Shown here in pieces: positions 3,178 through 23,967 of a stretch of DNA of 64,000 bases. How positions within the stretch are numbered: position 1 is the first letter of the stretch; every line of letters starts with the position of its first letter. Below the pieces are notes generated by a model, which was given only the letters and a program-made list of their open reading frames with translations, did not search any database and was not told the origin of the DNA. The stretch lies in IMG/VR virus record IMGVR_UViG_3300040808_000935, positions 1 to 64,000 of that record; one strand, given 5' to 3'. Position numbers and translations under genes: made by a program. Origin of the DNA: a virus.

Positions 3178-4301
3178 TAGAGTCTTTACCAACTCTTTAT
3201 AAGAGAGATACCAAGGGTAAGATCCGTGTTTGGACTATTGAGTATACCGACGAAGAACCAGGTATTAGAACAATCGCAGGACTTCAAGATGGTAAGCAAG
3301 TTACTAGCGCTTGGAAAAAGACTGAAGGTAAAAACACCGGCAAGTCTAACGAAACTACAGATTACACTCAAGCAATTGCAGAAGCCAAGGCAGAGTGGAA
3401 TAAGAAAGTTGAAAAAGAATATTTTGAAAACGTAGATGACATTGACTCATATACAAAGTTCCAACCTCAACTAGCACACGACTATTCAAAGCATCCTCAG
3501 TTTGACGGACTGTCTCAACCTAAGTTAGACGGCATTCGTTGTATTGCTAGGAAAGATGGATTGTTTACTAGATCAGGAAAAGAGATCAACACTTGTCCTC
3601 ACATTGAAGAATATCTAAAAGAGTTTTTTGAGGAGAACCCTCATGTAATTTTAGATGGTGAACTTTACAATCACGAACTGAAAGAAGACTTTAACAAAAT
3701 TACTTCTCTTGTTAGAAAAGAATCTACTTCAATTGAAGAAGCCGCGGTAAGAGAAGCAATTGTACAATACCACGTTTATGATTGCGTGTTTACAACTAGC
3801 TTAGATGCTGATTTCTCAGATAGAATTTCTTTTGTGTCCGATGTATTTAATATTATATATTTAGAAGACGGGCAAATGGCTCCCGTTCAATCGGTACCAA
3901 CTGTTTATTGTGGCGACCAGGATGCTTTAGATGAAAGATACTCTTTTTATCAAGCCGAGGGTTACGAAGGACAAATGGTTAGAAACAATGCGCCATACGA
4001 AAACAAAAGAAGTAAGAACTTGCTAAAAAGAAAAGAGTTTATCACTGAAGAATATGATGTTGTTGCTGTTTTAGAAGGCTCAGGAAACTGGGAAGGTTAT
4101 GCTAAACACTTTACACTAGACTTAGGTGACGGAAGAACTTTCAATAGTGGAGTTCGAGGCAATCAACAAGTATTGAAAGAACTATTAGAGCAAGAAGTAA
4201 AACCAACTTGGGTTACTTGCAGATATTTTGAAAAGACACCAGACGGAATCCCAAGGTTCCCGGTTGTTATTGATTGGGGAGTTAATGCACGAGATGACTG
4301 A
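3174..4301 (+). CDS. ATP-dependent DNA ligase
   Basis: 375 residues. It seals nicks in duplex DNA during phage replication and repair. Nucleotidyltransferase motif I is QPKLDGIR, with the AMP-accepting lysine at about 117. Also visible are LDGELY (motif III), EGQMVR (motif IV) and LLKRKEF (motif V). The first ~90 residues (RVWTIEY, then AEAKAEWNKK) resemble the WGR-type N-terminal extension seen in some phage ligases. The C-terminal part (GYAKHFTLDLGDGRTF) fits the OB-fold domain. It is shorter than T4 gp30 (about 487 residues) and so is a compact phage ligase. It is expressed from the promoter at 2917. Confidence 0.93.
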   Translation: MIESLPTLYKRDTKGKIRVWTIEYTDEEPGIRTIAGLQDGKQVTSAWKKTEGKNTGKSNETTDYTQAIAEAKAEWNKKVEKEYFENVDDIDSYTKFQPQLAHDYSKHPQFDGLSQPKLDGIRCIARKDGLFTRSGKEINTCPHIEEYLKEFFEENPHVILDGELYNHELKEDFNKITSLVRKESTSIEEAAVREAIVQYHVYDCVFTTSLDADFSDRISFVSDVFNIIYLEDGQMAPVQSVPTVYCGDQDALDERYSFYQAEGYEGQMVRNNAPYENKRSKNLLKRKEFITEEYDVVAVLEGSGNWEGYAKHFTLDLGDGRTFNSGVRGNQQVLKELLEQEVKPTWVTCRYFEKTPDGIPRFPVVIDWGVNARDD

Positions 4302-5189: not shown

Positions 5190-5941
5190 TGAATCTCACA
5201 ATGCCGTCCGCTTTTAAACAGGCGCAGTTTGTTATAAGAATGAATGCTATTATTGCATTCGTTCTGCTATTTAAATACGCATCAATCTTTTTAATACCTC
5301 TCATTTGGTTTGGCTTCTTGTTATATGGAACCTTATTTGAGATTTCACTTCATCGCTACTTTACGCATCGCTCATTTAAAACAAGCAAATACAAAGAGTA
5401 CCTATTAAGGTTCATTGCCTTTTTAATGGGACAAGGTTCTATATTAGGTTGGATCACTGTACATAGAACACACCACAGATATGCAGACACAGAAAAAGAT
5501 CCTCATAGTCCAAAGTATATGCCGTTATGGCGAGTCCTTACTGCAAGTTATGGTGACATGACTTCCCCTAGAATGATAATGAAAGAACTTAAAGGCCCTG
5601 ACGCTGAGTATTTAAAATGGGAAGCAAGATATTATGCGTTCCTTTGGGCCGCCCTATGGATTTTAACTTTATCTATTAGTCCGGTATTGTTGTTTGTTGT
5701 TTCAGGTGGTGCTACAATACAAATCATATCAGTCGGATTATTAAATATTATATGCCACCAGTATGGCGACAAACCATATGAAAATGCTTCCGCTTATAAT
5801 AACAAATGGTTGAATCTTCTTATAGGTTACGCCAACCACAATTCACATCATCACAAGCCATCGTCGTCCTACCACAAGCACGATCATGTTGGTTTTATTA
5901 TTAATAAATTTTTTGAGGACGTAAAAGAGAATGGCAAATAA
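5189..5941 (+). CDS. Fatty acid (acyl-CoA delta-9 type) desaturase
   Basis: 250 residues. A di-iron membrane desaturase that introduces a double bond into acyl chains. All three histidine boxes are present: HRYFTH at 55-60, HRTHH at 92-96 and HNSHH at 217-221. EKDPHSP follows box 2, as in the stearoyl-CoA desaturase family. Hydrophobic pairs near 16-50 and 150-185 are the membrane spans. The length is close to that of bacterial enzymes, so it looks intact. It lies inside a tight operon with radical SAM and sugar genes. The likely role is to modify host membrane lipids or a lipid-linked product. It was probably acquired from a cellular source. Confidence 0.9.
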   Translation: MNLTMPSAFKQAQFVIRMNAIIAFVLLFKYASIFLIPLIWFGFLLYGTLFEISLHRYFTHRSFKTSKYKEYLLRFIAFLMGQGSILGWITVHRTHHRYADTEKDPHSPKYMPLWRVLTASYGDMTSPRMIMKELKGPDAEYLKWEARYYAFLWAALWILTLSISPVLLFVVSGGATIQIISVGLLNIICHQYGDKPYENASAYNNKWLNLLIGYANHNSHHHKPSSSYHKHDHVGFIINKFFEDVKENGK

Positions 5942-7418
5942 CGAATCAGATGTAGATGGTATTCGATCTAGAACTAAAGAACTAGAAGCACAAGTAAGTC
6001 CGACATTTTGTTTAGCGAAGTGGCATCACACTTCCATCTATATGTATAGCGGACAAACCCACTCTTGTTACCACCCTCGCCCACACGATATTCCTTTACA
6101 AGGGTTGGCAGAAAATCCAGCGCAGTTACACAATACTCCTCAGAAAAAACAAGAGCGTGCTGAAATGCTTGTTGGTGAAAAGCCCGATGGCTGTAAGTAT
6201 TGTTGGAATGTTGAAGGACTTGATTCAGAGAATCCTGATATGCCTAATACCCATATCAGTGATAGAATGATTCGTAATCAGTCAATTCATACACCAGAAC
6301 GTATGGAAGAAATTTTAGCTAAGCCATGGGACTTTGATGTTAACCCAGAATATATTGAAGTAGCATTTTCAAACGAATGTAATTTTAAATGTGGTTATTG
6401 TCACCCTGCTGTTAGTTCTAGTTTTTATAATGAGATGAAAAAACACGGACCATTTAATATGGTTGAGAATCACGCATTAGATATTGACTACATTGAGGCA
6501 AGTGGACATCTAACGTCTTTAAAAGATGAAGACACCAATCCTTATGTTGCTGCTTGGTGGAAATGGTGGCCCGAGATGTCTAAGACATTAAACATTCTTA
6601 GAATTACAGGTGGCGAGCCGTTACTACACAAATCGACTTGGCGTTTGTTAGAAGAATTAAAACAAAACCCTAAACCTCATTTGGAGTTAAATTGTAACTC
6701 TAATTTAGGAATGGTAAATCGTCATGTTGTTAAGTTAACCAAATACATCAATGAACTTATGGAACTTGGAGCAATTAAGAAGTTTAAATTGTTTTCTAGT
6801 ATGGACACCTGGGGCCCTAGAGCAGAGTATTTGCGAACAGGACTAGACTTAGAGAAATGGGAAAAGAATCACGACACTTATATTAGAGGTTGTAAGTCTC
6901 ACATCACGCACATGGTAACATTTAATATTTTATCCGTGTCGTCATTTAAAGACTTCTTACAAAAAATATTAGACTGGCGTGCTGAGTATAATGATGTAAT
7001 TCCAATCATTGATCCTAGAAACCCAAACGACAGAAAGATTCGTTTTGACACTCCTTACTTAAAGGAGCCACTACAATATGATATGCACTTGTTGCCTAAA
7101 GAAGAATACCTTCCTTACTTCGACGAATGTTTAGATTTCATTCAAGAGAATATGAACGAAGAGGATTGTAGGACATTTAGCAAATTAGAGTATGAAAGAT
7201 TTAGACGTGTTCGAGATTATTTTGCAGAAGTTAATTATGATGAGAATAAAGTTAAAGAAGGACGAATAGATTTTTACAATTGGTTTACAGAACTTGATAG
7301 AAGAAGAAACACAAACTTTGTTGAAACTTTCCCAGATATGATTCCTTTTTGGGAACTTTGTAAGGGTTTGGCAGAGGAGAAAAAGGCAAACAGAATAGGA
7401 GTCACCCAGATTATATGA
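5931..7418 (+). CDS. Radical SAM protein with N-terminal twitch/SPASM-like domain (1)
   Basis: 495 residues. The radical SAM cluster motif is C150-x3-C154-x2-C157 (ECNFKCGYC), followed by RITGGEP, the GGE motif that contacts SAM. Before the barrel come C27, C46 (HSCYHP), C88 and C91 (GCKYCW), spaced like a twitch/SPASM auxiliary-cluster domain but placed N-terminally. The substrate is unknown. Such enzymes modify peptides, sugars or other small molecules. A paralogue lies at 13689-15209. It overlaps the desaturase by 11 bases, which implies shared expression. Confidence 0.85.
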   Translation: MANNESDVDGIRSRTKELEAQVSPTFCLAKWHHTSIYMYSGQTHSCYHPRPHDIPLQGLAENPAQLHNTPQKKQERAEMLVGEKPDGCKYCWNVEGLDSENPDMPNTHISDRMIRNQSIHTPERMEEILAKPWDFDVNPEYIEVAFSNECNFKCGYCHPAVSSSFYNEMKKHGPFNMVENHALDIDYIEASGHLTSLKDEDTNPYVAAWWKWWPEMSKTLNILRITGGEPLLHKSTWRLLEELKQNPKPHLELNCNSNLGMVNRHVVKLTKYINELMELGAIKKFKLFSSMDTWGPRAEYLRTGLDLEKWEKNHDTYIRGCKSHITHMVTFNILSVSSFKDFLQKILDWRAEYNDVIPIIDPRNPNDRKIRFDTPYLKEPLQYDMHLLPKEEYLPYFDECLDFIQENMNEEDCRTFSKLEYERFRRVRDYFAEVNYDENKVKEGRIDFYNWFTELDRRRNTNFVETFPDMIPFWELCKGLAEEKKANRIGVTQII

Positions 7419-7425
7419 GGCTCCA

Positions 7426-8169
7426 ATGGCAAATTTAATATTAGGTTTAGGCGATTCTCTTATCGGAGGCTGTGAGTGCGAGTCCCCTCCCAAACATTCT
7501 TTTATTGCTACTGTAGCTAAGGAGTTTGGCTGGGATCACCTTGTGATTGCAGAATCAGGCATATCAAATCTTGCAACTATAACAAATGCCTTTACTAGTG
7601 ATTTTGATTGGAGTAAATACGACAAAAAAATTATTATTATTAATATTGCACATTATCAAAAACTAAGTTTACTAGCAGATAGAAGAGAAGACAGGAATTG
7701 GGAAACATTTCTACCCAAAGGAAAGAAATGGGCTAGTTGGTCAGAAAATAAAATAATAGTTAATAATGGTTTAAAAGAATTCATCACACCCGAACTCGGA
7801 CAAAGACAATTTTATTCTGATTATAAATTATTAGAAGCATTTAAAACATTACACGGGTTCAGCGATATTTTTATGATACCTTCTATAGAGAATCTTACAA
7901 AGGAATTTTTTTCGCCAGACATCGAGGGTTACAATGAGTTTCCTTGGGAAAATATTTTAGAGATTGATGGCATACGATCATCCTGGCATTGGTGTTATTG
8001 GAAAGCCCATGGTGTAATAGATTACAACGCAAGAATAGATCAGGATTGGTGGTTGTTTTCAAAGGGCGAAAAAAGAACAAGATATTTTCATGAAAGAGGA
8101 CACCCTAAAGAAGAGATGCAAGAATTATATGGCAAAGCAGTTGCCAACCACCTAAGAGAAAAGATATGA
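7426..8169 (+). CDS. SGNH/GDSL-hydrolase-like protein (1)
   Basis: 247 residues. The start GLGDSLIGG is block I of the SGNH family (nucleophile serine in GDS at residues 9-11). ERGHPKEEMQELYG near the end supplies the C-terminal histidine of the catalytic pair. Family members remove or transfer acyl groups on lipids or glycans. The middle is divergent, so the assignment rests on these two blocks. It is one of three SGNH-like proteins in this operon. It overlaps the next gene (ATGA). Confidence 0.65.
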   Translation: MANLILGLGDSLIGGCECESPPKHSFIATVAKEFGWDHLVIAESGISNLATITNAFTSDFDWSKYDKKIIIINIAHYQKLSLLADRREDRNWETFLPKGKKWASWSENKIIVNNGLKEFITPELGQRQFYSDYKLLEAFKTLHGFSDIFMIPSIENLTKEFFSPDIEGYNEFPWENILEIDGIRSSWHWCYWKAHGVIDYNARIDQDWWLFSKGEKRTRYFHERGHPKEEMQELYGKAVANHLREKI

Positions 8170-9167
8170 AAATTTTTATAACAGGCATTGCAGGATTTTT
8201 AGGCAGTCATTTAGCTGAAGAACTTTCTGCGTTGGGACATGAGGTATCGGGCAACGACAATCTTGTAGGTGGTGAAGTTTATAACGTACCTAAAAATGTA
8301 GACTTCTCTTTTGCTGATTGTACTGACTTTTGTGCAATGGAAAAACTGTTAGAAGGTGTAGACATTGTAATACACGCAGCAGCCACAGCACATGAGGGGT
8401 TGTCTGTATTTAGTCCATCCTTTATTACTAAGAATATTTTTGAAGCATCAGTTACAACTATCTCAGCAGCCATATCAAACAATGTTAAGAGGTTTGTATT
8501 CTGTTCTTCCATGGCAAGATACGGTAATCAAGTAGCACCCTTTACTGAAGACATGGATCCAAAGCCGGTTGATCCTTATGCGATTGCCAAGGTAGCCGCA
8601 GAACAAGTATTACAAAATCTTTCTGAAACACACGGCATGGAATGGAACGTCGCTGTGCCTCATAATATTATTGGGCCGAGACAAAGGTATGACGACCCGT
8701 TTAGAAATGTCTTGAGTATAATGTTAAATAGAAACTTACAAGACAAACCTGTTTACATATACGGAGACGGTGAGCAAGTTAGATGTTTTTCTTATGTGTC
8801 TGAATGTACGGACTCATTAATTAAAATGGCACTAGATCCTAACATTACAAGTGAAGTTATTAACATTGGCCCTGATGAAGGTGAGATTACTATTAATCGT
8901 TTAGCAGAATTGGTTGCGAGCGAGACTGGTTGTAACTTAGAACCTATTCATGTTGCAGATAGGCCGAGAGAAGTTAAAATATCCCACTGCTCAAGCGATA
9001 AGGCAAGAAGATTGTTAGACTATAAACCTACTATTACACTTCAAGAGGCAATAAGAAATACAGCAGATGAAATTCGTATACGTGGGACAAAAGAGTTTGA
9101 TTATACTTTCCCTTTAGAAATTAATTCAGACATTACACCGGACACCTGGAAAAAGAGACTCATTTAA
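8166..9167 (+). CDS. NAD-dependent epimerase/dehydratase (extended SDR)
   Basis: 333 residues. The Rossmann start GIAGFLGSH gives GxxGxxG at 7-13, the catalytic pair is Y138-x3-K142 (YAIAK), and SSMARYG supplies the serine strand. PHNIIGPRQRY and VINIGPDEG are typical substrate-domain stretches of sugar-nucleotide epimerases and dehydratases. It should interconvert an NDP-sugar for the neighbouring glycosyltransferases. The length matches the family. It overlaps the next gene by 1 base. The exact sugar cannot be read from sequence. Confidence 0.9.
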   Translation: MKIFITGIAGFLGSHLAEELSALGHEVSGNDNLVGGEVYNVPKNVDFSFADCTDFCAMEKLLEGVDIVIHAAATAHEGLSVFSPSFITKNIFEASVTTISAAISNNVKRFVFCSSMARYGNQVAPFTEDMDPKPVDPYAIAKVAAEQVLQNLSETHGMEWNVAVPHNIIGPRQRYDDPFRNVLSIMLNRNLQDKPVYIYGDGEQVRCFSYVSECTDSLIKMALDPNITSEVINIGPDEGEITINRLAELVASETGCNLEPIHVADRPREVKISHCSSDKARRLLDYKPTITLQEAIRNTADEIRIRGTKEFDYTFPLEINSDITPDTWKKRLI

Positions 9168-10156
9168 TGAATGATTGGGTCAATCCTTATCAACAAAGGA
9201 TCAGGAATAGCCCGTGGATTCCAGAACAAGATAATATTTACAGTATAGGTGTAGCTGGTTCATTGTATGAGTGGACACAGGCGAATGGCAAATCCCTATT
9301 CCATTTTCTAGATCTAGAAAAACTAAAAAACAAAAAAGCAATCCTTGTTATTGATTATACTATTGAAGGTTATGATGAGCCTTGGATTTATGATTGGCTT
9401 TACAAGGAATCAAAACGCTACGGGATATCACCCGAACAAATTGTTTATTGTCCAGGTGACTTGAGCGCTAAATCTGATATAATAAAAACTATACCCTTTT
9501 GTTGGTTTGAGAAAAAAGCGTTTCTCAATACTTTAGAACAACCCGTCCCAACATTCGAAGATCATTTAAATTATAAAAAAGATAATCCGACTTTGTTGTT
9601 TAATTGTCCTCAAAAAAGAATACGTGGGCACCGAAAACTTTTTGATACTAAAATAGAATCAATTAAAGACAAAGGGATATACAGTTTTATCGGCACCGAT
9701 CAATTTATAGAAGGCGATAAACACGAAGAAGAACTAAGTTATTACATAGATAGATTCCATCAGCAATACTGCCTCGATACGTTTGTTACCATTGTTAGCG
9801 AGCCACAATATTTTGGTGATAGCAAATTTTTAAGTGAGAAAATATTTAAACCAATTGCCTGCTCACACCCATTTATAGTTCTTGGAACACAAGGGTATCT
9901 CAAGGAGTTAAAAAAGAAAGGTTATAAAACTTTTGATAATTGGTTTGACGAATCGTATGATGAGATGCCAGATAATCTTAGAATGGGAAGTATAATAAAT
10001 ACGTTGAAAGAAATTGATTTGATACAGGACAAAACATCTTGGTTTGAATCTATGAGAGAAACATTGGAGCATAATTATAAGGTAATGCAGACTAATTATA
10101 TTAATCACAATGTAGCAACTACTATACGGAATTACGCTAATGAAATTTGCTTTTGA
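9167..10156 (+). CDS. Exostosin/GT10-like glycosyltransferase (1)
   Basis: 329 residues. The C-terminal half carries FVTIVSEPQYF, then FLSEKIFKPIACSHPFIVLG and GYKTF. This pattern (an SE-K-x-F-K helix and an HPFIVLG strand) resembles the nucleotide-sugar site of exostosin-type and fucosyltransferase-type GT-B enzymes. The next gene has the same pattern and QKRIRxHR, so the pair are paralogues. A transferase acting on the product of the upstream epimerase is a reasonable inference. Identity is moderate because the match rests on one region. Confidence 0.6.
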   Translation: MNDWVNPYQQRIRNSPWIPEQDNIYSIGVAGSLYEWTQANGKSLFHFLDLEKLKNKKAILVIDYTIEGYDEPWIYDWLYKESKRYGISPEQIVYCPGDLSAKSDIIKTIPFCWFEKKAFLNTLEQPVPTFEDHLNYKKDNPTLLFNCPQKRIRGHRKLFDTKIESIKDKGIYSFIGTDQFIEGDKHEEELSYYIDRFHQQYCLDTFVTIVSEPQYFGDSKFLSEKIFKPIACSHPFIVLGTQGYLKELKKKGYKTFDNWFDESYDEMPDNLRMGSIINTLKEIDLIQDKTSWFESMRETLEHNYKVMQTNYINHNVATTIRNYANEICF

Positions 10157-11477
10157 GGATAAGACATATTTAAATAATTTTAAATTGTGTGGTGATAAGA
10201 ATAACTCAGGCTTGTTACGATTCACCCCCTGTCCTATGACCTCTACACTTGTTAGGTATTGGCAAACTAAAGATAGGTATAACAATTTAAGTTTTGCTAA
10301 TTATTCTATTTACCACCACGGTATCGATTCAGACACTACAATAAAATATCTAATATCGACAGGTGTTAATCACAGTCCAGGAGAATGGTGTGGCCCTGAT
10401 AGAATGGGACAAGGATACAATCCCAGCCACCCAGATAGAAAAAGTGTTTTTGCTCTTTTGAACGACAAATATTTAAAGGACTTACAAGACAACAATGCCA
10501 TGTTAATGTTGGACCAAAGTCATGAGGGGTATCAAGTACCTTGGCTTTGGAGTTGGTTTCATAACGAATGTGATGACAATAACATTTCACCTAGAAATAT
10601 AATCTATGTAACCGGCAATTGTTTAGCAGAAGAACAATATACTTCATGGGCAAATACACATGGCATTGTAACAAGAATTAAAGTTGTTCCGTATACACAC
10701 TTTGAAAATATGATTAATGTAACTGCTGAGAATAGAGTTAGAATTGACGGTGGAGATCCGTTGCCAACATTTGAAAGCCACATTGAACATAAAACTAATA
10801 ACCCTGAGGAACTAAAAACTTTTAACGCATTACAAAAAAGAATTAGACCTCACAGAGTTTGGTTATACAAGATGTTGCACGACCATAACCTATTGCAAGA
10901 TGGACTCTGTTCTATGAACGAGTTTACACAATACAACACCTATTTAGAAGGCAAGTCTTTACCTGAAGATGTTATAGATAAATATAATGAGGGTTTGCCG
11001 TTAAAGGTTTATAACAAAGCAAACAATGAAAAAGATGACGGGTATTATATAACAAGATTTAATGATGAAACAATACTCAACACCTTTGTAAGCGTTGTAA
11101 GCGAGGCATCGTTTGCTGATATGGATCAGACTTGTTTTTTAAGTGAAAAAACTTTTAAGTCGATTGCTGAATATAGTCCTTTTATTGTTTATGGCAATAG
11201 GCGTTCTTTAGAGTTTTTGAAAGACTTTGGTTACAAGACATTTCATCCTCATATAGATGAGACTTATGATACGCTACCAACATTTGAAAGATTGGAAGCA
11301 ATTATTAAAGAAATAACTAGAATTAAAAATATTGAAGATAAGGTTGAATGGTTTAAAGGTATGGAAGATATATTACAACACAATAGAGAAGTGTTGAGAA
11401 AAAACTCTAATGATTATGTTCCTAAAGCAATGATAGACGTCCACAGATATTATGAGGAAACTTTAAATGTACGCTAA
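10140..11477 (+). CDS. Exostosin/GT10-like glycosyltransferase (2)
   Basis: 445 residues, a longer paralogue of the preceding protein. It shares QKRIRPHR, FVSVVSE, FLSEKTFKSIAEYSPFIVYG and GYKTFHPHIDETYD with it. The extra length is N-terminal. The start at 10140 overlaps the previous gene by 17 bases. Tandem paralogues in a sugar cluster suggest successive transfer steps on one glycan. Like its neighbour, the call depends on the C-terminal GT-B-like motif. Confidence 0.6.
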   Translation: MKFAFEDKTYLNNFKLCGDKNNSGLLRFTPCPMTSTLVRYWQTKDRYNNLSFANYSIYHHGIDSDTTIKYLISTGVNHSPGEWCGPDRMGQGYNPSHPDRKSVFALLNDKYLKDLQDNNAMLMLDQSHEGYQVPWLWSWFHNECDDNNISPRNIIYVTGNCLAEEQYTSWANTHGIVTRIKVVPYTHFENMINVTAENRVRIDGGDPLPTFESHIEHKTNNPEELKTFNALQKRIRPHRVWLYKMLHDHNLLQDGLCSMNEFTQYNTYLEGKSLPEDVIDKYNEGLPLKVYNKANNEKDDGYYITRFNDETILNTFVSVVSEASFADMDQTCFLSEKTFKSIAEYSPFIVYGNRRSLEFLKDFGYKTFHPHIDETYDTLPTFERLEAIIKEITRIKNIEDKVEWFKGMEDILQHNREVLRKNSNDYVPKAMIDVHRYYEETLNVR

Positions 11478-12504
11478 CGAATATGACGCAATTAATAAAG
11501 ACTTAGAGCGTACTAGAAAAGCGGTTATTGTATTCGGTGATTCTTTTGTGGAAGGTCAAGGCTCTATTGATGAAAAGATTTTAAACAAATACCCACATCA
11601 CATAGACGACGGTAATGTAATAAAATTCGATATAGACGTAGAAGAAAAAAAACAAATTGTTAAGGATTTTCCAGATATACAATTAGAGTTACTTGGCGCA
11701 GAAGGTGATATGCGTTGGGAGTTAAATGTTGTACACCATGAAAGAAACAGAAACTTTGGTGCTCATCTTTGCAATGAGCATTTAAATAAAGAATGGACTC
11801 ATATCAATTTTGGCATGAGGGGTAATGGTAACAGAGCTAGTATAATGAATCTTTTTCTGCACCCGTTTTTGAATTTAGACGTAGCTAAAGAGTTTATTAT
11901 AATATATGTACCAAGCGGCCCAGAAAGATTTGATTTCTCTCATAGAGAAAATCCAACGGGAGGTTCACCGGGTCATTTCTATTTTGAAACTATGTGGCCT
12001 ACTGCTAATACTGCGCGGGCCGGTTTACAAGATCAATTTGAAAGACAAACTAAAGGTAAACCGACTGATATAGAGGACAGGGCATACTACCGGGCTTCTT
12101 TGTGGGAGGCTTATGGGCATTACGTTTACTCAGAGAGAATGATAGCACAAGAACAAGTCTTACATTGGCAAGTATTAAACCAATGGATGCGTAGTAGAAA
12201 AATAAGAAAGTTTTTATGGACTCCTGCATTTGATAACCGTTGGTCAAGAAAACATTTTTTACGATCGGGGTTGGCTCCATCCTTAGTAGATAGTTTTCCG
12301 TGGGATAAAAAATTCAGCCCAGGAGGATACAACTCATTTGTAAATCTTGTAGAAGCTCAAGAAGGGCTAAAGTACAATAGCTTTTATAACTACATGGGCA
12401 CAGGATCTCCTGAGGGCTGGATTACAGCGTGCGCACACCCATCATACAAAGGGCACAAAAGATTCGCAAAAACAATTTATGAGGAATTAAAAGATGTCCT
12501 ATGA
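11467..12504 (+). CDS. SGNH/GDSL-hydrolase-like protein (2)
   Basis: 345 residues. AVIVFGDSFVEGQG gives block I (G24-D25-S26). NFGMRGNGNRAS resembles block III, with the conserved Gly/Asn. ACAHPSYKGHKRFA holds the C-terminal histidine. It belongs to the family of acyl or acetyl esterases and transferases that act on polysaccharides. It overlaps both neighbours by 11 bases, so it is cotranscribed. An O-acyl-modifying role on the cluster's glycan is inferred. Confidence 0.65.
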   Translation: MYANEYDAINKDLERTRKAVIVFGDSFVEGQGSIDEKILNKYPHHIDDGNVIKFDIDVEEKKQIVKDFPDIQLELLGAEGDMRWELNVVHHERNRNFGAHLCNEHLNKEWTHINFGMRGNGNRASIMNLFLHPFLNLDVAKEFIIIYVPSGPERFDFSHRENPTGGSPGHFYFETMWPTANTARAGLQDQFERQTKGKPTDIEDRAYYRASLWEAYGHYVYSERMIAQEQVLHWQVLNQWMRSRKIRKFLWTPAFDNRWSRKHFLRSGLAPSLVDSFPWDKKFSPGGYNSFVNLVEAQEGLKYNSFYNYMGTGSPEGWITACAHPSYKGHKRFAKTIYEELKDVL

Positions 12505-13450
12505 TCCAATGGCGTTTGACCAACTTATAGACGATACGCCAATTAAAAAATTTAAGAACCTAGGAGATGGTTTCAGATCCGAGCACGACGAAGATGGAGT
12601 TTTGTTTCCTGCTCCTATTGCTCTTTGGGAGAAATATCCTTTCCTCCCTTTAATGTCTAGTTCCAGCCCTGGCAACGTCCAAGACTTTGTTATAGGTGAC
12701 ACCGAGAATGACTATGAACAACACAAAATAGAAATGGGCCCTGATTGGAAATACTACAACACACCTATAAAATATATTATTAATGATAATGGTTACCGAG
12801 CGCCTGAATGGAACACCATTGACTGGGAGAATAGTTATGTCCTATTAGGTTGCTCTTGTTCATTTGGTGTTGGATTAGATGAGGAAGAAACTTTGTCTAG
12901 GCATTTATCAATTGGACTTAAGGCTCCTGTTATAAATCTGGGCTACCCGGGTGGTTCCAATGAAACCATCATTTTCAACTTGTTGAGACTTCTTAAACAC
13001 TACCCTAAACCTAAAGGGGTTATTATACAGTGGACAACTTTAGATAGGGCTATAATGTGGCACAAGCTTCAGCATTATAACTTAGGTCCTTGGGATATTG
13101 CTAATTATCCGCCCACAAGAACAAAGACATTTGATGGAACAGATTGTACCGAGCAATACCTAACTATGTTTTTAGATCAATACAATGAAGTAGGCAAGAA
13201 CTATATGTGGGGACAGATGGCTAAGGAATTATTAAAGTCTGCAAACATACCTTCTTCTTACTTTTCTTTTTTCGGTAACACATCAACTGTTATGAGATGT
13301 AATTGGAACGCTATGGATCCTGATCAAAAGAACGTACCCGTTTCAGAGTTGACTCGCCTTGAATGGGCAAGAGACTTGGTACACCCAGGAAATTTATGTA
13401 TGAAAAGAACAGCAGAGAGAATTATTAAAGACAAATTGTTGGTAAGATAG
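12494..13450 (+). CDS. SGNH-like protein with altered catalytic block (3)
   Basis: 318 residues. Block I reads VLLGCSCSFGVGLDEEET: the usual GDS is GCS here, so the aspartate is replaced by cysteine. NLGYPGGSNETI fits block III, and RDLVHPGN supplies the C-terminal histidine. The fold is therefore SGNH-like, but the chemistry may differ. The gene closes the first part of the accessory operon, and a new promoter starts just after it at 13464. Confidence 0.55.
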   Translation: MSYDPMAFDQLIDDTPIKKFKNLGDGFRSEHDEDGVLFPAPIALWEKYPFLPLMSSSSPGNVQDFVIGDTENDYEQHKIEMGPDWKYYNTPIKYIINDNGYRAPEWNTIDWENSYVLLGCSCSFGVGLDEEETLSRHLSIGLKAPVINLGYPGGSNETIIFNLLRLLKHYPKPKGVIIQWTTLDRAIMWHKLQHYNLGPWDIANYPPTRTKTFDGTDCTEQYLTMFLDQYNEVGKNYMWGQMAKELLKSANIPSSYFSFFGNTSTVMRCNWNAMDPDQKNVPVSELTRLEWARDLVHPGNLCMKRTAERIIKDKLLVR

Positions 13451-13463
13451 GTATAATAAATAC

Positions 13464-13492
13464 TTGACAGTAGACTTATTATAATATATAAT
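13464..13492 (+). promoter_or_regulatory. Sigma70-type promoter
   Basis: TTGACA at 13464-13469, a 17-base spacer, and TATAAT at 13487-13492. It drives the small gene at 13515 and the radical SAM/carbamoyltransferase pair. A second TATAAT at 13480-13485 has an unsuitable 10-base spacer. Confidence 0.8.
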
Positions 13493-13514
13493 ACACTTAT
13501 AACTAGGATTATTT

Positions 13515-13673
13515 ATGAAAGATTTTAAAGCAAAACAGAAAGAACTCACAGAACTTAATGCAGACGGTAATGAAGATCGTAACAGAGAAGGTGAGTCTTC
13601 ATCTAAAGAACAAGAAGAGTTGAAGAAACGACTTGAAGAATTGAGGAAGAACGACCCCTTTATTTACGAATAA
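13515..13673 (+). CDS. Small charged coiled-coil protein
   Basis: 52 residues, found by reading the gap between two larger genes. It is almost all charged (Lys/Glu/Asp), with a heptad-like helix EELKKRLEELRKND near the end. AGGATT lies just before the ATG, and a strong promoter ends 22 bases upstream. The next gene follows after 15 bases. No function is known. It could be a small binding partner or regulator of the radical SAM protein. Confidence 0.6.
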   Translation: MKDFKAKQKELTELNADGNEDRNREGESSSKEQEELKKRLEELRKNDPFIYE

Positions 13674-13688
13674 AAGAAAGGTTATATT

Positions 13689-15209
13689 ATGTCTGATTAT
13701 GATACCGCTGCTGATGTAGCAGAGAAGCAACTTAGAAATATTTCTAATACTATGTGCTACGCCAAGTGGAGTCAAGTGTCTTTACATTTGCCCAATGGTA
13801 GAACGCACTCTTGTTATCACCCTCCCACGCACGCAATAGATGTTGAAGAGATTAAAGAAAACCCTTCAGCACTACATAACACCAAACAGAAAAAAGAAGA
13901 AAGACAAATGATGCTTGACGGCAAGCGTCCTTCTGGTTGTGAGTATTGTTGGAAGATTGAAGACACCGGGAATAGAAGTGATCGTGTCTACAGGAGCGGA
14001 GAATATTGGGCACAAAATTCTAGAAAAGATATTATAGCGAGTACAGGAAATAATCTAGAAATTAATCCGAGATACGTTGAGGTTAATTTTAATCAGGCTT
14101 GTAACTTTAAATGCTCTTACTGTTCGCCACACTTATCTAATACATGGGAAAGAGAAATATCTAGACACGGTGCCTATGAGATTATTGGTACTGACGGCAA
14201 ACGTTCAAGACATAATGACGTAGGGCACTTAGATAAAATTGGCATGATGCCGAAAAAATTATCACAAAAAGAAAACCCGTATGTTGAGGCGTTTTGGAAA
14301 TGGTGGCCCGACCTTTATCAGACACTAGAAGTTTTTAGAATGACTGGTGGCGAACCATTAATGGACTCTAATACATTTAAAGTTTTAGAATACATTTACG
14401 AGAATCCTAATGCTTGGTTGGAAGTAAGTGTTACAAGCAATATGTGTCCTCCCAAGCCAGCGCTTATGGATAAGTTTATTTCTTTATTACAAAAATTAGA
14501 AGAGATACAAATTTGGCATAGCGAAAGATGGAATCCAGGCTCAGGAAATAATTGGTATGTTAATATGGCAGTTAAAAACTTTGCTGTCTTTGTTAGCTTG
14601 GACGGAATGGGAAAACAAGGAGAATATATACGGGACGGACTTAAAATGAAAACATTGAAAAAGAATGTTGACAGAGTCCTAAGCGAGACTTGTAATACAA
14701 CTGTTAGCTTTATTAATACTTTTAACTCTTTAAGTTTACCTACTTTTAAGGAGTATTTGCAGTATATTTTAGAACTTAGAGGAGAGTATTCGAGGGAAAA
14801 ACAGGGCGTAAAGAAGATTCCTATATATGACGAATATAACACACACCCAGACTTTGAAGTACACCCTAGACAGCGTATTTGGTTTGATGTTCCTTTGTTA
14901 CGAAATCCTCAGTGGCAATGTATCAATACACTTCCACCACAGTTTGAAAAATACTTGATTGACGCTATTCAGTTTATGGAAGAGAATACAGACACAGATA
15001 ACTTTGTTGGTTTTTATGATTTTGAAATTGACAAAGTAAAAAGAAATTTAGAATGGATGCGAGCTAGAAACAATTCCAAGGAAGTTACAACAATAGCAAG
15101 AAAGAATTTTGTTAAGTTCTTTAAGCAACATGATGAAAGACGTGGTACAGATTTAGTAGAGACGTTCCCAGAATTTAAGGACTTATGGAGAAAATATGGC
15201 GAAGAGTGA
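13689..15209 (+). CDS. Radical SAM protein with N-terminal twitch/SPASM-like domain (2)
   Basis: 506 residues, a paralogue of the protein at 5931-7418. The radical SAM motif is C138-x3-C142-x2-C145 (ACNFKCSYC), followed by RMTGGEP. The N-terminal auxiliary cysteines C23, C42 (HSCYHP), C84 and C87 (GCEYCW) match the first copy in spacing. Both end with a similar RRxTxxVETFP stretch. It overlaps the carbamoyltransferase gene by 14 bases, which suggests the two act on one product. Confidence 0.85.
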   Translation: MSDYDTAADVAEKQLRNISNTMCYAKWSQVSLHLPNGRTHSCYHPPTHAIDVEEIKENPSALHNTKQKKEERQMMLDGKRPSGCEYCWKIEDTGNRSDRVYRSGEYWAQNSRKDIIASTGNNLEINPRYVEVNFNQACNFKCSYCSPHLSNTWEREISRHGAYEIIGTDGKRSRHNDVGHLDKIGMMPKKLSQKENPYVEAFWKWWPDLYQTLEVFRMTGGEPLMDSNTFKVLEYIYENPNAWLEVSVTSNMCPPKPALMDKFISLLQKLEEIQIWHSERWNPGSGNNWYVNMAVKNFAVFVSLDGMGKQGEYIRDGLKMKTLKKNVDRVLSETCNTTVSFINTFNSLSLPTFKEYLQYILELRGEYSREKQGVKKIPIYDEYNTHPDFEVHPRQRIWFDVPLLRNPQWQCINTLPPQFEKYLIDAIQFMEENTDTDNFVGFYDFEIDKVKRNLEWMRARNNSKEVTTIARKNFVKFFKQHDERRGTDLVETFPEFKDLWRKYGEE

Positions 15210-16647
15210 TAAGATAGTTTGGGGTGTTGCCGCGGGTACACACGATGCCTCTCTAACTGTTATGCAAGGTGATGAAATATTATTCGCATCTCATTCAGAA
15301 AGATTTAGTAGAATTAAAAATGACAAGGACCTACATCCAAAACTTGTAGAGTATGCTTTAACATTTGGCAAACCCACAAAAGTATATTGGTATGAGAATC
15401 CTCTACTCAAGGCATATAGAAAATGGGGTGCCGGTCAGAAGAACCTCTGGTTGAGCCCTAAAAAATATATGAAATCGTACGGCATTACTGCACCAATTAA
15501 ATGGGGACTACACCACAAGTCTCACGCGGCCGCAGGACTATATACGTCTCCCTTTGACGATGCCGCGGTAGTAGTTATTGATGCTATTGGTGAAATGCAA
15601 ACCACATCAATATGGGAAACAACAAAAGATAGAAAACTTAAAAAACTTATTTCTTGGAACTACCCATTTTCAATAGGTCTCTTTTATTCTGCGTTTACTG
15701 CTAGAGTAGGGCTGAAGCCAAATGAAGATGAATACATTCTAATGGGAATGTCTGCATACGGAAACCCAGATAGATTCTATGATGAAATTTGTGGCTTGAT
15801 TGATGCAGAATATAATTTTCACCAGGGTGTTAGGCACTGGAGACCAGAACTAAAGCCTGAAGATTATTTTGACGTTGCCGCCGCAGTGCAAAAACTATAT
15901 GAAAAGAATTTAGAAATTATGTTAGTTAAAGCCAAAGTCAGATCACAAAAGAATAATCTTGTACTGATGGGCGGGTGTGCATTAAATTGTCTGGCAAATA
16001 GACTTATTCCTTACCACTTCGAAAACAGTTGGATAATGCCCAACCCAGGTGACGCTGGTTCTTCATTGGGAGCAATATTAGCAGCAAGAGAAACTCAGGC
16101 TAGATGGAGAAGCCCTTACACGGGTTATGACATTAAAGGCGAATACCCCACGCAAGCTATACTAGATGAATTGTTTAAAACTGGCATGGCAGGAGTCGCA
16201 AACGGCAAAGCAGAGTTTGGACCTAGGGCATTAGGCAATCGAAGTTTGTTAGCAGATCCTAGGGGCAGTCGAATGAAGGATAAAGTTAATAATATTAAAC
16301 AGCGACAAGAATATAGGCCGTTTGCTCCTGTTATTAGACTGGAAGATGTAAAGGAATGTTTTAATGTGCCTGATGATTTCGCCTCTCCATATATGCAGTA
16401 CGTTGTTACTTGTAAACAACCAAAGAAATATCCAGCAATTGTTCATGAGGATGGGACGTCAAGAGTACAAACTGTTACAAAAGAACAGCATCCTGGATTG
16501 TATGAATTGTTAACAATCTGGAAGGAGCGCACAGGCTGCCCAATGTTACTAAATACAAGTTTAAACATCAAAGGACAGCCTATTGTGAACACCGAAAAAG
16601 AAGGTAGAAAGTTTGAAAAAGTTTACAATGTAAAGGTGTTTTCTTAG
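15196..16647 (+). CDS. Carbamoyltransferase (NodU/CmcH/TobZ family)
   Basis: 483 residues. It transfers a carbamoyl group from carbamoyl phosphate, through a carbamoyl-adenylate, to a hydroxyl on a sugar or antibiotic-like product. The N-terminal Kae1/ASKHA-type domain has GTHDASL, HHKSH (metal ligands H106 and H110) and IDAIGE. The catalytic region has MGGCALNC and NPGDAGSS. The C-terminal domain has FGPRALGNRSLLADPR and MLLNTSLNIKGQPIV. It is about 100 residues shorter than NodU, but FEKVYNVKVF looks like a natural end for phage-type members. It closes the sugar/radical SAM operon. Confidence 0.9.
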   Translation: MAKSDKIVWGVAAGTHDASLTVMQGDEILFASHSERFSRIKNDKDLHPKLVEYALTFGKPTKVYWYENPLLKAYRKWGAGQKNLWLSPKKYMKSYGITAPIKWGLHHKSHAAAGLYTSPFDDAAVVVIDAIGEMQTTSIWETTKDRKLKKLISWNYPFSIGLFYSAFTARVGLKPNEDEYILMGMSAYGNPDRFYDEICGLIDAEYNFHQGVRHWRPELKPEDYFDVAAAVQKLYEKNLEIMLVKAKVRSQKNNLVLMGGCALNCLANRLIPYHFENSWIMPNPGDAGSSLGAILAARETQARWRSPYTGYDIKGEYPTQAILDELFKTGMAGVANGKAEFGPRALGNRSLLADPRGSRMKDKVNNIKQRQEYRPFAPVIRLEDVKECFNVPDDFASPYMQYVVTCKQPKKYPAIVHEDGTSRVQTVTKEQHPGLYELLTIWKERTGCPMLLNTSLNIKGQPIVNTEKEGRKFEKVYNVKVFS

Positions 16648-18554: not shown

Positions 18555-18926
18555 ATGGAAAAGTTACTACAGAAAACACAAGAAGTCGCAGATTTGATGC
18601 TCAAAGACTACGACAATTGGACTAAAAGATGTGCCGAGGCTAACGGCTGGGACTATAAAAGTTCCGAAGAAAAGGGTGTTACAATAACACTAGAAGAAGG
18701 CAGAAACTTTATTAAGTTCGTTAAGACTGATGGTCAGTCTTGTGTGAACGGGTTTGTTGTTAAGAATCCACCAAAAGGAATTGACAACAAAACAGGCAAA
18801 CCTTTCCAAGTTGGTGACTTGTTAATGGCAGCGTCCTGGTCGGCTCCTGCGAAAAACTTTGCAAGAGGAAATGTGTTTCAACCCGAGACACTTGGTAAAT
18901 GTATTAGATGGACAGGAGTTCTTTAA
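18555..18926 (+). CDS. Conserved-type hypothetical protein
   Basis: 123 residues from the ATG at 18555, which has GAGG 5 bases upstream. In-frame starts at 18513 and 18522 lie at or near the predicted transcription start and lack a ribosome site. Central GRNFIKFVKTDGQSCVNGFV and later GDLLMAASWSAPAKNFARGNVF look like a compact beta domain. It overlaps the exonuclease gene by 19 bases, so a link to DNA metabolism is possible but not shown. Confidence 0.65.
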   Translation: MEKLLQKTQEVADLMLKDYDNWTKRCAEANGWDYKSSEEKGVTITLEEGRNFIKFVKTDGQSCVNGFVVKNPPKGIDNKTGKPFQVGDLLMAASWSAPAKNFARGNVFQPETLGKCIRWTGVL

Positions 18927-19585
18927 AATTGTTTGAACATAATATTGTTGAGATACCTCAACTAAAACAAATTAACACAGACGCCGGAAGGAGATATGAA
19001 ACTCCTTCTGGTACGCTGTACCCGTCAATTACGACAATCTTATCTCATAAGTCTAAGCCCTTTATTGATGCTTGGCGTAAACGAGTAGGAGCAGATGTTG
19101 CTAACAAGATTAGCAATAAAGCCTCAACTCGAGGGACAAAGATTCACCAATTGTGCGAAGACATTCTTAATAATAAATTGACAGACGATTCAAGTCTCAA
19201 TTATATTGATAAAGAAATGTTCCAAAAGTTTCGTCCTTTGTTAGACGACATAGGTGTGATTAATAGTATTGAATCCAAGCTATATTCAGATCACCTACGT
19301 CTTGCAGGACAGGTTGACTGCATTGCCGAGTATAAAGGCAAAGTGTCAATTATTGATTTCAAAACTTCTATGAAACGTAAAACTAGAAGTATGTGTGAAA
19401 ACTATTTTATACAATGCTGTGCTTATGCTATTATGTTTGAGGAGCGTACAGGTATTCCTGTATCTCAGCTAGTAATACTTATGGCAGTCGAGGGTGAAGA
19501 GCCCATCGTATTTTGTGAGAAGAGAGACGACTATGTTGCCAAACTTCTAGAAGCAAGAGACGACTACGAAGCGGCGTATAAATAA
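18908..19585 (+). CDS. PD-(D/E)XK exonuclease, RecB/MGME1-like
   Basis: 225 residues. The nuclease core is AGQVDCIAE (D137), then IIDFKTS (D150 and K152), then a helix with Q (YFIQCCAYA). Upstream TRGTKIHQLCED is the typical first helix with His and Glu. This matches RecB-family and mitochondrial-genome-maintenance-type single-strand exonucleases found in T4-like marine phages. The likely role is processing DNA ends during replication, recombination or host DNA breakdown. Its last codons overlap the late-promoter box of the tmRNA. Confidence 0.85.
   Translation: MDRSSLKLFEHNIVEIPQLKQINTDAGRRYETPSGTLYPSITTILSHKSKPFIDAWRKRVGADVANKISNKASTRGTKIHQLCEDILNNKLTDDSSLNYIDKEMFQKFRPLLDDIGVINSIESKLYSDHLRLAGQVDCIAEYKGKVSIIDFKTSMKRKTRSMCENYFIQCCAYAIMFEERTGIPVSQLVILMAVEGEEPIVFCEKRDDYVAKLLEARDDYEAAYK
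19577..19584 (+). promoter_or_regulatory. T4-type late promoter box (TATAAATA) for the tmRNA
   Basis: TATAAATA over the last codons of the exonuclease gene. The predicted start, 6 bases downstream at 19590, coincides with the beginning of the tmRNA acceptor segment. Confidence 0.6.
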
Positions 19586-19589
19586 AATG

Positions 19590-19855
19590 CCTGTTGAGGG
19601 TTGTAGTAAAACGAGGCTGGACTCGGGTTCGAATCCCGACAGCTCCACCAAAAGCATACTAGTGTCCAGTTAAGTTTGGAACACATCTGATAAAGTGGCT
19701 AGTGTGCTTTTGATGGGGCTGACAAGGTATCGACAGTCAAGAAAATAAGCAACAAGAGGGTCGTCAGAGTAGACGTAAAAACTATTTTAATCTAAATGCA
19801 AACGCAAACGATTACGCATTAGCAGCATAAGCTAATTGGGGTATGGGCTCCACCT
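19590..19855 (+). ncRNA. ssrA: Permuted (two-piece) tmRNA gene
   Basis: The order is inverted relative to a standard tmRNA. First comes the acceptor segment with T-stem TCGGG/CCCGA around TTCGAAT (19623-19639), then CAGCTCC-A-CCA ending at 19650. A linker follows, then GGGGCTG (19715-19721), which pairs with CAGCTCC (7 bp, third pair G-U, the alanine identity pair). CAGTC at 19734-19738 can pair with GGCTG at 19615-19619 as helix 2. The tag frame ends ANDYALAA-stop (stop 19828-19830; resume codon GCA at 19798 or 19804), enclosed by TTAGC/GCTAA (helix 5). It rescues stalled ribosomes and tags proteins for decay. The outer ends are approximate. Confidence 0.93.
19651..19714 (+). other. tmRNA intervening segment hairpin (removed on maturation)
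   Basis: Bases 19651-19662 pair with 19699-19710 (12 bp, one G-U), directly after the encoded CCA and 4 bases before GGGGCTG. A smaller inner stem pairs 19664-19669 with 19677-19683. The hairpin stacks on the acceptor stem, as expected for the spacer that joins the halves of a permuted tmRNA precursor. Confidence 0.85.
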
Positions 19856-19892
19856 TATAATCAAACGGGCCCAACATTAAAGGAGGACTTCC

Positions 19893-20387
19893 ATGAGAAC
19901 AATTCTAGGAATAATCTTGGGACTTTCAACTTTTCCAAGTACAGGTACAGGATTAGATGAACCCACAGATGTTGATTTAAGACAAGTACATTGTTTAGCA
20001 CACAACATTTATTTCGAAGCATCCAACCAAGGAACTGCTGGAATGGTTGGAGTAGGACAAGTAACACTCAATAGAGTAAAGTCTAAAAAATATCCTAATA
20101 CAATTTGCGAGGTTGTATACCAAGCAGAGTATAGGATAAACTGGAAAGGTAATAGAGTTCCTGTCCTAAATCGGTGCCAGTTCAGTTGGTATTGTGATGG
20201 GAAAGCAGAAACAATACGTTACCCAAAGGATTATGATGAAGCTTATATTATGGCAGAACTTCTAATAGAAGACCGCCTAGTTGATATAACAGATGGTGCC
20301 TTATTTTATCATGCGGATTATGTTAGCCCAAAGTGGGCAAAGAGCATGGCACAAAAAATAAAAATAGGCGACCATATCTTTTATTAA
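19893..20387 (+). CDS. SleB/CwlJ-type cell-wall hydrolase (probable endolysin)
   Basis: 164 residues. The Hydrolase_2 (SleB) core is CLAHNIYFEA with catalytic E42, then GQVTLNRVKS and CQFSWYCDGK. It cleaves peptidoglycan glycan strands. The first ~20 residues (ILGIILGLSTF) form a short hydrophobic segment that could act as a signal or signal-anchor, so export may not need a holin. AAAGGAGG lies 5-6 bases before the ATG. It sits straight after the tmRNA and may share the late promoter at 19577. Lysis at the end of infection is the inferred role. Confidence 0.85.
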   Translation: MRTILGIILGLSTFPSTGTGLDEPTDVDLRQVHCLAHNIYFEASNQGTAGMVGVGQVTLNRVKSKKYPNTICEVVYQAEYRINWKGNRVPVLNRCQFSWYCDGKAETIRYPKDYDEAYIMAELLIEDRLVDITDGALFYHADYVSPKWAKSMAQKIKIGDHIFY

Positions 20388-23334: not shown

Positions 23335-23913
23335 ATGATAGTAATCTCAATGCCACGATGTGGTGGAACTAAATACTGCCAAGACTTGTCCAATACAACA
23401 GGACTTCCTTATAAGGGAGACATGGACATTTACAACCTTCCCGAATTAGGATCGGTTTGGCACCATATTAAAACTACACACCACGAAACTAATACTGGCG
23501 GATTGATTACAATCGACGATACTGTAGACACGGTATCTAACTATAAGGACAACATCGTTCTAATTAACAAAAACTTTACACCCATGTTACCATTCGGCGA
23601 TGTGTATTTAATTAGAAAGAACCTTAGAAACATCTTTACAAGTTTAACCGAGTATTGGCTACGAATAGGTGGGGGAGAGTTTCCTACCATATTTAATGAA
23701 AAGAACTTGAAAGAGATGGCAGTTCAGTGTAAAATATACATTGAATATTTAAACAACAATAATATTGAACCGGTTTATTACGAAGATTATTTTAACGATC
23801 ATCCTCACAATACACCAATACTAGATAACCACAAAGCTAAGGAAGCATACTTACACTTTATAGATGAGACTATGTCTCAATTAGGATTAAGCGCTCTTAG
23901 CTCAACTGGATAG
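23335..23913 (+). CDS. Sulfotransferase-like protein
   Basis: 192 residues. The N-terminal SMPRCGGTKY fits the 5'-phosphosulfate-binding loop of PAPS-dependent sulfotransferases. VYLIRKNLRNIFTSLTEYW fits the 3'-phosphate-binding strand and helix (RNP-x-D-x-x-S type, degenerate). It is shorter than typical cellular enzymes. The ATG at 23335 lies just after the gp32 terminator, so how it is transcribed is unclear. The last 23 bases overlap the tRNA-Arg gene. A sulfated glycan or lipid target would fit the sugar genes in this phage, but the substrate is unknown. Confidence 0.6.
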   Translation: MIVISMPRCGGTKYCQDLSNTTGLPYKGDMDIYNLPELGSVWHHIKTTHHETNTGGLITIDDTVDTVSNYKDNIVLINKNFTPMLPFGDVYLIRKNLRNIFTSLTEYWLRIGGGEFPTIFNEKNLKEMAVQCKIYIEYLNNNNIEPVYYEDYFNDHPHNTPILDNHKAKEAYLHFIDETMSQLGLSALSSTG

Positions 23914-23967
23914 AGCAACGGCCTTCTAAGCCGTAGGTTGCAGGTTCGAGTCCTGCAGGGCGCGCCA
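23891..23967 (+). tRNA. tRNA-Arg, anticodon TCT
   Basis: 77 bases. Acceptor GCGCTCT pairs with AGGGCGC (one G-U), the discriminator is G, and CCA is encoded. The anticodon loop CTTCTAA gives anticodon TCT for AGA codons. The T-arm is GCAGG-TTCGAGT-CCTGC. It overlaps the end of the sulfotransferase-like gene by 23 bases. AGA is frequent in this AT-rich sequence, so the tRNA probably supports phage translation. Confidence 0.95.

Follow-up and report, generated by a model that had tools for sequence, protein, structure and literature searches.

The tmRNA gene and its anatomy

The window, a stretch of 64,000 nucleotides from IMG/VR virus record IMGVR_UViG_3300040808_000935, carries an intact circularly permuted tmRNA gene on its plus strand at 19589-19873, identified by the covariance model RF04321 (tmRNA_permuted) and concordantly by ARAGORN. 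The RF04321 match spans 19589-19830 and the full length of the model (1-213) with 103.3 bits, more than twice the cut-off of 47 (E 4.8e-19). ARAGORN calls a single tmRNA in the window, of the permuted type, at 19558-19921, with the tag ANANDYALAA. A sequence-only reading had proposed a phage-borne permuted tmRNA at this position, and both searches bear it out.

The order of parts, evident in the sequence and in the ARAGORN call, is acceptor half, encoded CCA, spacer and tag half, as the same reading had described. The acceptor half (19589-19650, from the RF04321 alignment and the sequence) consists of a 5′ segment that pairs with the coding half, the T-arm (19623-19639, with stem strands 19623-19627 and 19635-19639), the acceptor 3′ strand CAGCTCC (19640-19646), and A73 with the encoded CCA (19647-19650, CCA at 19648-19650). 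The intervening spacer of 64 nt (19651-19714) is predicted to fold into a terminal stem, two inner hairpins and a TGAT tail; the proposed 12-bp spacer hairpin is recovered as this terminal stem, which pairs 19651-19662 with 19699-19710 and includes one U.G pair. The coding half (19715-19873, from the sequence and RF04321, its exact mature ends being presumptive) begins with the acceptor 5′ strand GGGGCTG (19715-19721) and runs to a 3′ hairpin, UGGGCUC/GGGCCCA (19844-19850/19867-19873). The earlier placement of the gene end at 19855 therefore falls inside the coding half, which reaches to about 19873. The tag frame and its stop occupy 19798-19830 in the ARAGORN call; its 10 amino acids replace the eight of the earlier ANDYALAA, which had missed the first two codons, and end in a hydrophobic-AA degradation signal.

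The 7-bp acceptor stem, the T-stem and the G3-U70 alanine identity pair had also been claimed, and all are present in the sequence. For the RNA of 19616-19726 the predicted fold contains the T-stem, and its acceptor stem continues into the stem of the spacer (-47.6 kcal/mol, z -5.9, none of 200 shuffles equal). In this fold the last four bases of the spacer, TGAT, lie opposite ACCA, so that the acceptor helix would be continuous with the spacer helix.

Phage context and neighbouring genes

The source is a marine T4-like phage of bacteria, akin to pelagimyophages. It carries T4-like genes for a gp32-type single-strand binding protein and for baseplate hub and wedge proteins, and its wedge protein is 34-36% identical to those of HTVC008M, Mosig, BUCT-ZZ01 and Melnitz, which are among its best relatives. 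All four of these phages carry a permuted tmRNA over the cut-off. Upstream of the tmRNA lies a PD-(D/E)XK-type exonuclease gene (18908-19585, +; phrog_298, E 7.4e-72), the last codons of which overlap a promoter octamer. Directly downstream is a gene for a cell-wall hydrolase or endolysin (19893-20387, +; phrog_938, E 6.5e-22) with the ribosome-binding site AAAGGAGGA. The position first described, in a T4-like phage with an exonuclease on one side and a lysin on the other, thus holds.

This position is common, not universal. Among the matches listed, and for loci fetched by tmRNA pattern and not by homology of the neighbours, a same-strand exonuclease lies upstream in 54 of 119 phage tmRNA loci and a same-strand lysin downstream in 47 of 125; an upstream exonuclease or downstream lysin in opposite orientation was found in none of the pattern-fetched loci listed. 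No SmpB gene was found in the 64.5-kb record, which is a piece of a phage whose relatives measure 141-156 kb.

Several further features were noted at these loci. The window contains genes for two radical SAM proteins, a nucleotide-sugar epimerase and a Nol-like carbamoyltransferase at 5931-16647, likely a glycan or metabolic cluster, and a tRNA-Arg (TCT) at 23891-23967, an anticodon also reported for Melnitz (PMC9004378). In two close relatives, L002 (about 2630-2975) and L004, a small gene (MSNPYELR...) lies between tmRNA and lysin, bracketed by two copies of the tmRNA 3′ hairpin; the same gene is found 3′ of the tmRNAs in L008, L013, L136 and L150. A PqqA-like precursor peptide (PF08042, 39.5 bits, cut-off 21.1) lies directly 3′ of the phage permuted tmRNA in L149 (about 3284-3355). 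Permuted tmRNAs are unannotated in the deposited records of HTVC008M (KC465899.1, 145161-145370), BUCT-ZZ01 (ON615601.1, 116952-117248), Xanthomonas phage Rb1, Rhodobacter phage RcXuper and Alcaligenes phage QDWS595 (L529, L530 and L531). Near the BUCT-ZZ01 tmRNA, ARAGORN calls a tRNA with anticodon CTA (L521 2875-2950, minus strand; named Pyl), possibly an amber suppressor.

Structural conservation and proposed function

The phage tmRNA set is a sample in which many contigs are fragments, and its sequences are related, so that counts do not represent independent events. The 101 distinct phage T-arm/acceptor strings listed were partly fetched by a pattern fixing CTCCACCA and GGGG, letters that are no independent evidence. 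Each acceptor pair can form in 100% of these strings and each T-stem pair in 96-100%; changes on both sides of a pair are frequent, and G3-U70 is invariant. The terminal stem of the spacer likewise keeps a fixed register. With a tail of exactly 4 nt, a mean of 9.1 of 10 pairs form in the phage spacers listed, against 4.5 in shuffled sequence and 8.6 in cellular spacers; a tail of 2 nt gives 5.9 pairs, and tails of 3 or 5 nt fall below shuffled sequence. Since cellular and phage spacers share one register, phage precursors appear to keep the cellular form, which is consistent with host processing. The fixed register, with TGAT opposite ACCA, thus supports maturation by host enzymes as in cellular two-piece tmRNA.

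We consider it probable that the window gene is a functional phage permuted tmRNA with a late-type promoter and two-piece maturation, serving in rescue and tagging with host SmpB. Transcription would proceed from the late-type TATAAATA promoter and start at the 5′ end of the acceptor half. In the precursor, acceptor stem and spacer stem are predicted to form one long helix, from which the RNase P and 3′ processing of the host would excise the spacer; the two resulting RNAs would stay joined through base pairing, by analogy with cellular two-piece tmRNA. The product could be charged with alanine by way of G3-U70. Host SmpB is its presumed partner, as no SmpB was found in the available sequence; the scheme presupposes that SmpB, RNase P and ClpXP are all supplied by the host. 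The RNA would then rescue ribosomes stalled late in infection, adding ANANDYALAA, and the ALAA end should send the tagged fragment to ClpXP.

The alphaproteobacterial layout of the sequence-only reading did not fare as well. The window scores 47.5 bits with the Alphaproteobacterial model RF01849, narrowly under the cut-off of 50, while the Betaproteobacterial model RF01850 gives 88.5 bits, narrowly over its cut-off of 84; the relatives L008, L021 and L023 do exceed the RF01849 cut-off. The clade-specific models disagree, a specifically alphaproteobacterial assignment is not supported, and the narrow RF01850 pass does not fix descent. The tag pattern of the window is absent from all 84,980 species genomes searched and so gives no inference of a host.

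Promoter and timing of expression

The octamer TATAAATA, of the T4 late-promoter type and with presumed promoter activity, lies at 19577-19584 (+), 73 nt before the end of the CCA. It has no -35 box, the -35 region showing only 3/6 matches to TTGACA. Among the matches listed, the octamer stands 70-110 nt before the CCA end in 63 of 164 phage copies, 51 of them in the 70-79 bin, and it is nearly missing from the rest of the 400 nt upstream in the phage copies listed. None of 33 cellular permuted tmRNAs has it at the corresponding position. The window holds 15 occurrences against 7.7 expected, several of them directly before structural genes. The octamer, its position and the missing -35 box are all late-promoter features, and the window copy looks like a late promoter; because it lacks a -35 box it reads as late-only, and late expression of the window tmRNA is plausible.

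Other phage copies differ in this respect. Many have TTGACA 17 nt ahead of the octamer, which often appears to be composite, doubling as a sigma-70 -10 box. Among the matches listed, the -35 sequence is a perfect TTGACA in 26 of 65 phage copies with the octamer, so that early or constant expression is likely in these relatives. The idea that the octamer signifies late-only expression in every phage copy was dropped, given the -35 boxes in many. In Melnitz, the promoter has been described as early (PMC9004378), yet it contains TATAAATA, whereas the window copy without a -35 box reads as late-only.

The authors of the Melnitz study proposed that phage tmRNA acts early, tagging host proteins for degradation or keeping host translation going, and the location of Melnitz ssrA directly after an early promoter (PMC9004378) agrees with this, as does the spacing of TTGACA and octamer in many phage copies. 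We regard early action as rather unlikely for the window gene, given its poor -35 region and the lysin directly downstream. Moreover, the exact octamer is the commonest -10 sequence in copies with a -35 box (36 of the 77 listed), exceeding any TATAATNN form, which suggests late use too.

A role other than rescue, in which the RNA would act against host trans-translation as an inhibitor or decoy by titrating SmpB or alanyl-tRNA synthetase, is improbable. The model for such a role is mycobacteriophage DS6A, whose tmRNA has no tag: strong inhibition of tmRNA by a DS6A-like molecule is reported, perhaps through SmpB titration (PMC4131195). Blocking host rescue could benefit a phage. The tag frame of the window gene is complete, however, and 125 of 134 phage tags among the matches listed keep an [LIVM]AA ending, which would be needless for a decoy and indicates that the degradation signal is retained in phages.

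Exchange of the spacer block

Close relatives of the window differ from it in one block of the tmRNA gene. One contig, L003, matches the window without a difference over 8.7 kb. Three others (L002, L004 and L005) encode an exonuclease protein 100% identical to that of the window, with 97-99% DNA identity around the locus. An alignment of these three with the window delimits a replaced block at 19623-19725 (+) that takes in the T-stem, the acceptor stem, the spacer and the next few nucleotides. Within it the window differs from the three contigs at 47-49 positions, 33-35 of which are owed to spacer length, against 0 differences in the adjoining 103-nt bin upstream and 0-1 in that downstream. 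The changes to T-stem and acceptor in the window lineage are compensatory.

The spacer of the window recurs in two phage loci, L328 (95% identity) and L322 (89%), with tag-coding bodies that are only 59% and 54% like that of the window. Relative to the window, the terminal stem of these spacers is altered with pairing kept, and the inner helix covaries from CAC/GUG to CGC/GCG. In at least 22 pairs of phage tmRNAs the bodies agree to 90% or more, whereas the spacers are less than 60% alike. Melnitz and contig L383, for example, share one tag and have bodies 93% alike, while their spacers (142 and 54 nt) are unrelated, and in L182 and L390 body and 5′ segment are identical and essentially the spacer alone differs. 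That the tRNA arms always move together with the spacer was rejected, several pairs differing in the spacer alone.

Taken at the level of sequence comparison, these patterns show that the spacer has repeatedly been exchanged between phages, probably through recombination of co-infecting phages across conserved flanks. In the permuted gene, paired arms and spacer are contiguous and hence replaceable as one unit; recombination during co-infection could replace the mutually paired T-arm, acceptor stem and spacer without breaking pairs.

A different origin for the block, in which the gene persists chiefly because elements such as satellites integrate or recombine there and the replacement is their trace, we judge very improbable. 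The T-arm is a part often used by integrases, and the replaced block begins there. Genomic islands frequently integrate at tmRNA genes (PMC11915505). However, the two strands of the T-stem change jointly with the far acceptor strand, unlike the outcome of a single T-loop crossover, and in several pairs the spacer alone has changed. No integrase or element was seen at the window locus, and tags and promoters are conserved, which shows that the RNA itself is under selection. Chimeric assembly as the source of the block differences is hardly credible, and so is a decaying relic gene: most of the sequences are metagenomic contigs, but one variant is common to two separate samples (L002 and L004), the window variant occurs in two records (the window and L003), isolated phages carry the gene, Melnitz and L383 repeat the pattern, and the changes are compensatory with all elements intact.

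Spacer content

The spacer of the window (19651-19714) contains no ORF, and an Rfam scan of the spacer alone returned only tmRNA pieces and chance microRNA models. Some relatives have spacers with ORFs for peptides with a single membrane-type span (L037 and L194, with similar ones in L176/L258, L195, L223 and L338); in several of these an AGGAG-like site follows immediately after the CCA and the stop lies within the conserved TGAT. ORFs with a single hydrophobic span are also seen in the spacers of L384 and L263, and lysins are near several of the loci, so that these may be lysis or membrane microproteins. A second type of spacer peptide, CxC...CGKC (MYLCICNNVREGDTEKYHLIGTNCGKCIS...), is conserved in L006-L016 and L245; these Cys-rich frames have no stop ahead of the tag half and continue into it. 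Differences at first, second and third codon positions fall mostly on the third (0, 2, 9 for L008/L013; 4, 4, 16 for L008/L245; 3, 0, 7 for L176/L258). Among the cellular controls a spacer ORF was seen in L482 only, a contig that is similar to the L195 type of phage spacer and is possibly phage sequence itself.

By length alone, ATG ORFs of at least 15 amino acids are not enriched in spacers (21 against 15.9 expected). ORFs occupying at least 70% of the spacer are enriched, with 14 against 4.2 expected and a shuffle maximum of 12. In Pfam no spacer peptide had a match over the cut-off (zinc_ribbon_6, E 0.003, and Fer2_BFD, E 0.7, fell below it), and the CxC...CGKC peptide had no match as a free-standing gene in isolate phages. 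The frames suggest that some phage spacers are translated; that of the window does not look coding.

We tentatively propose, as a reading with somewhat less than even chances, that the phage permuted tmRNA is a cassette platform whose spacer would be an exchangeable slot for functional cargo and not waste. The slot would be swapped among phages with or without the pairing arms. It would hold either a microprotein gene of the single-span or CxC...CGKC type or, as the window does, a structured RNA, and its content would be made together with late or lysis genes. Should working microproteins be encoded there, a gene for ribosome rescue would also serve to carry cargo, a role for the tmRNA spacer that is unmentioned in the literature open to search.

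Comparison with known systems

Phage-borne permuted tmRNA is a known kind of gene, with annotated copies in Melnitz and Mosig. A two-piece tmRNA was reported in the Methylophilales phage Melnitz in 2022, when 53 two-piece structures were counted among phage tmRNAs, 50 of them marine or aquatic (PMC9004378). The family RF04321 was introduced in a study that lists 79 unique bacteriophage tmRNA sequences (PMC11915505). No description of the window copy, the block exchange, the promoter placement or the spacer ORFs was found in a search of mainly open-access literature, and the cassette behaviour is possibly new. The late-type promoter at the presumed mature 5′ end and the phage tags that retain a degradation signal offer handles for study, and the whole replacement of paired arms and spacer, with the remainder identical, is a natural experiment.

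The closest counterparts are Melnitz (MZ577097), Mosig (MT647606) and HTVC008M (KC465899), related T4-like phages that resemble the window in an RF04321 score over the cut-off and in an exonuclease shortly upstream; Melnitz also has TATAAATA at equal distance. Their tags (ANDNYVPVDYALAA, GEDNFALAA and ANFNEYALAA) differ from ANANDYALAA. In Melnitz and Mosig late-transcription genes come next, whereas a lysin follows in the window, and Melnitz combines a -35 box with its 142-nt spacer where the window has no -35 box and a 64-nt hairpin spacer.

The cellular permuted tmRNAs of Alpha- and Betaproteobacteria share with the window the order of parts, G3-U70, the register of the spacer stem and a TGAT-like tail. 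The window differs from them in a tag found in 0 of 84,980 species genomes, in TATAAATA (0 of 33 cellular copies) and in missing the RF01849 cut-off. Mycobacteriophages, including Bxz1, Wildcat and DS6A, likewise carry a tmRNA or a tRNA-like domain (PMC4131195). Theirs are listed simply as phage ssrA, with none marked as permuted (PMC4131195), whereas that of the window is permuted; and while DS6A has little beyond the tRNA-like domain and no tag half (PMC4131195), the tag half of the window gene is complete.
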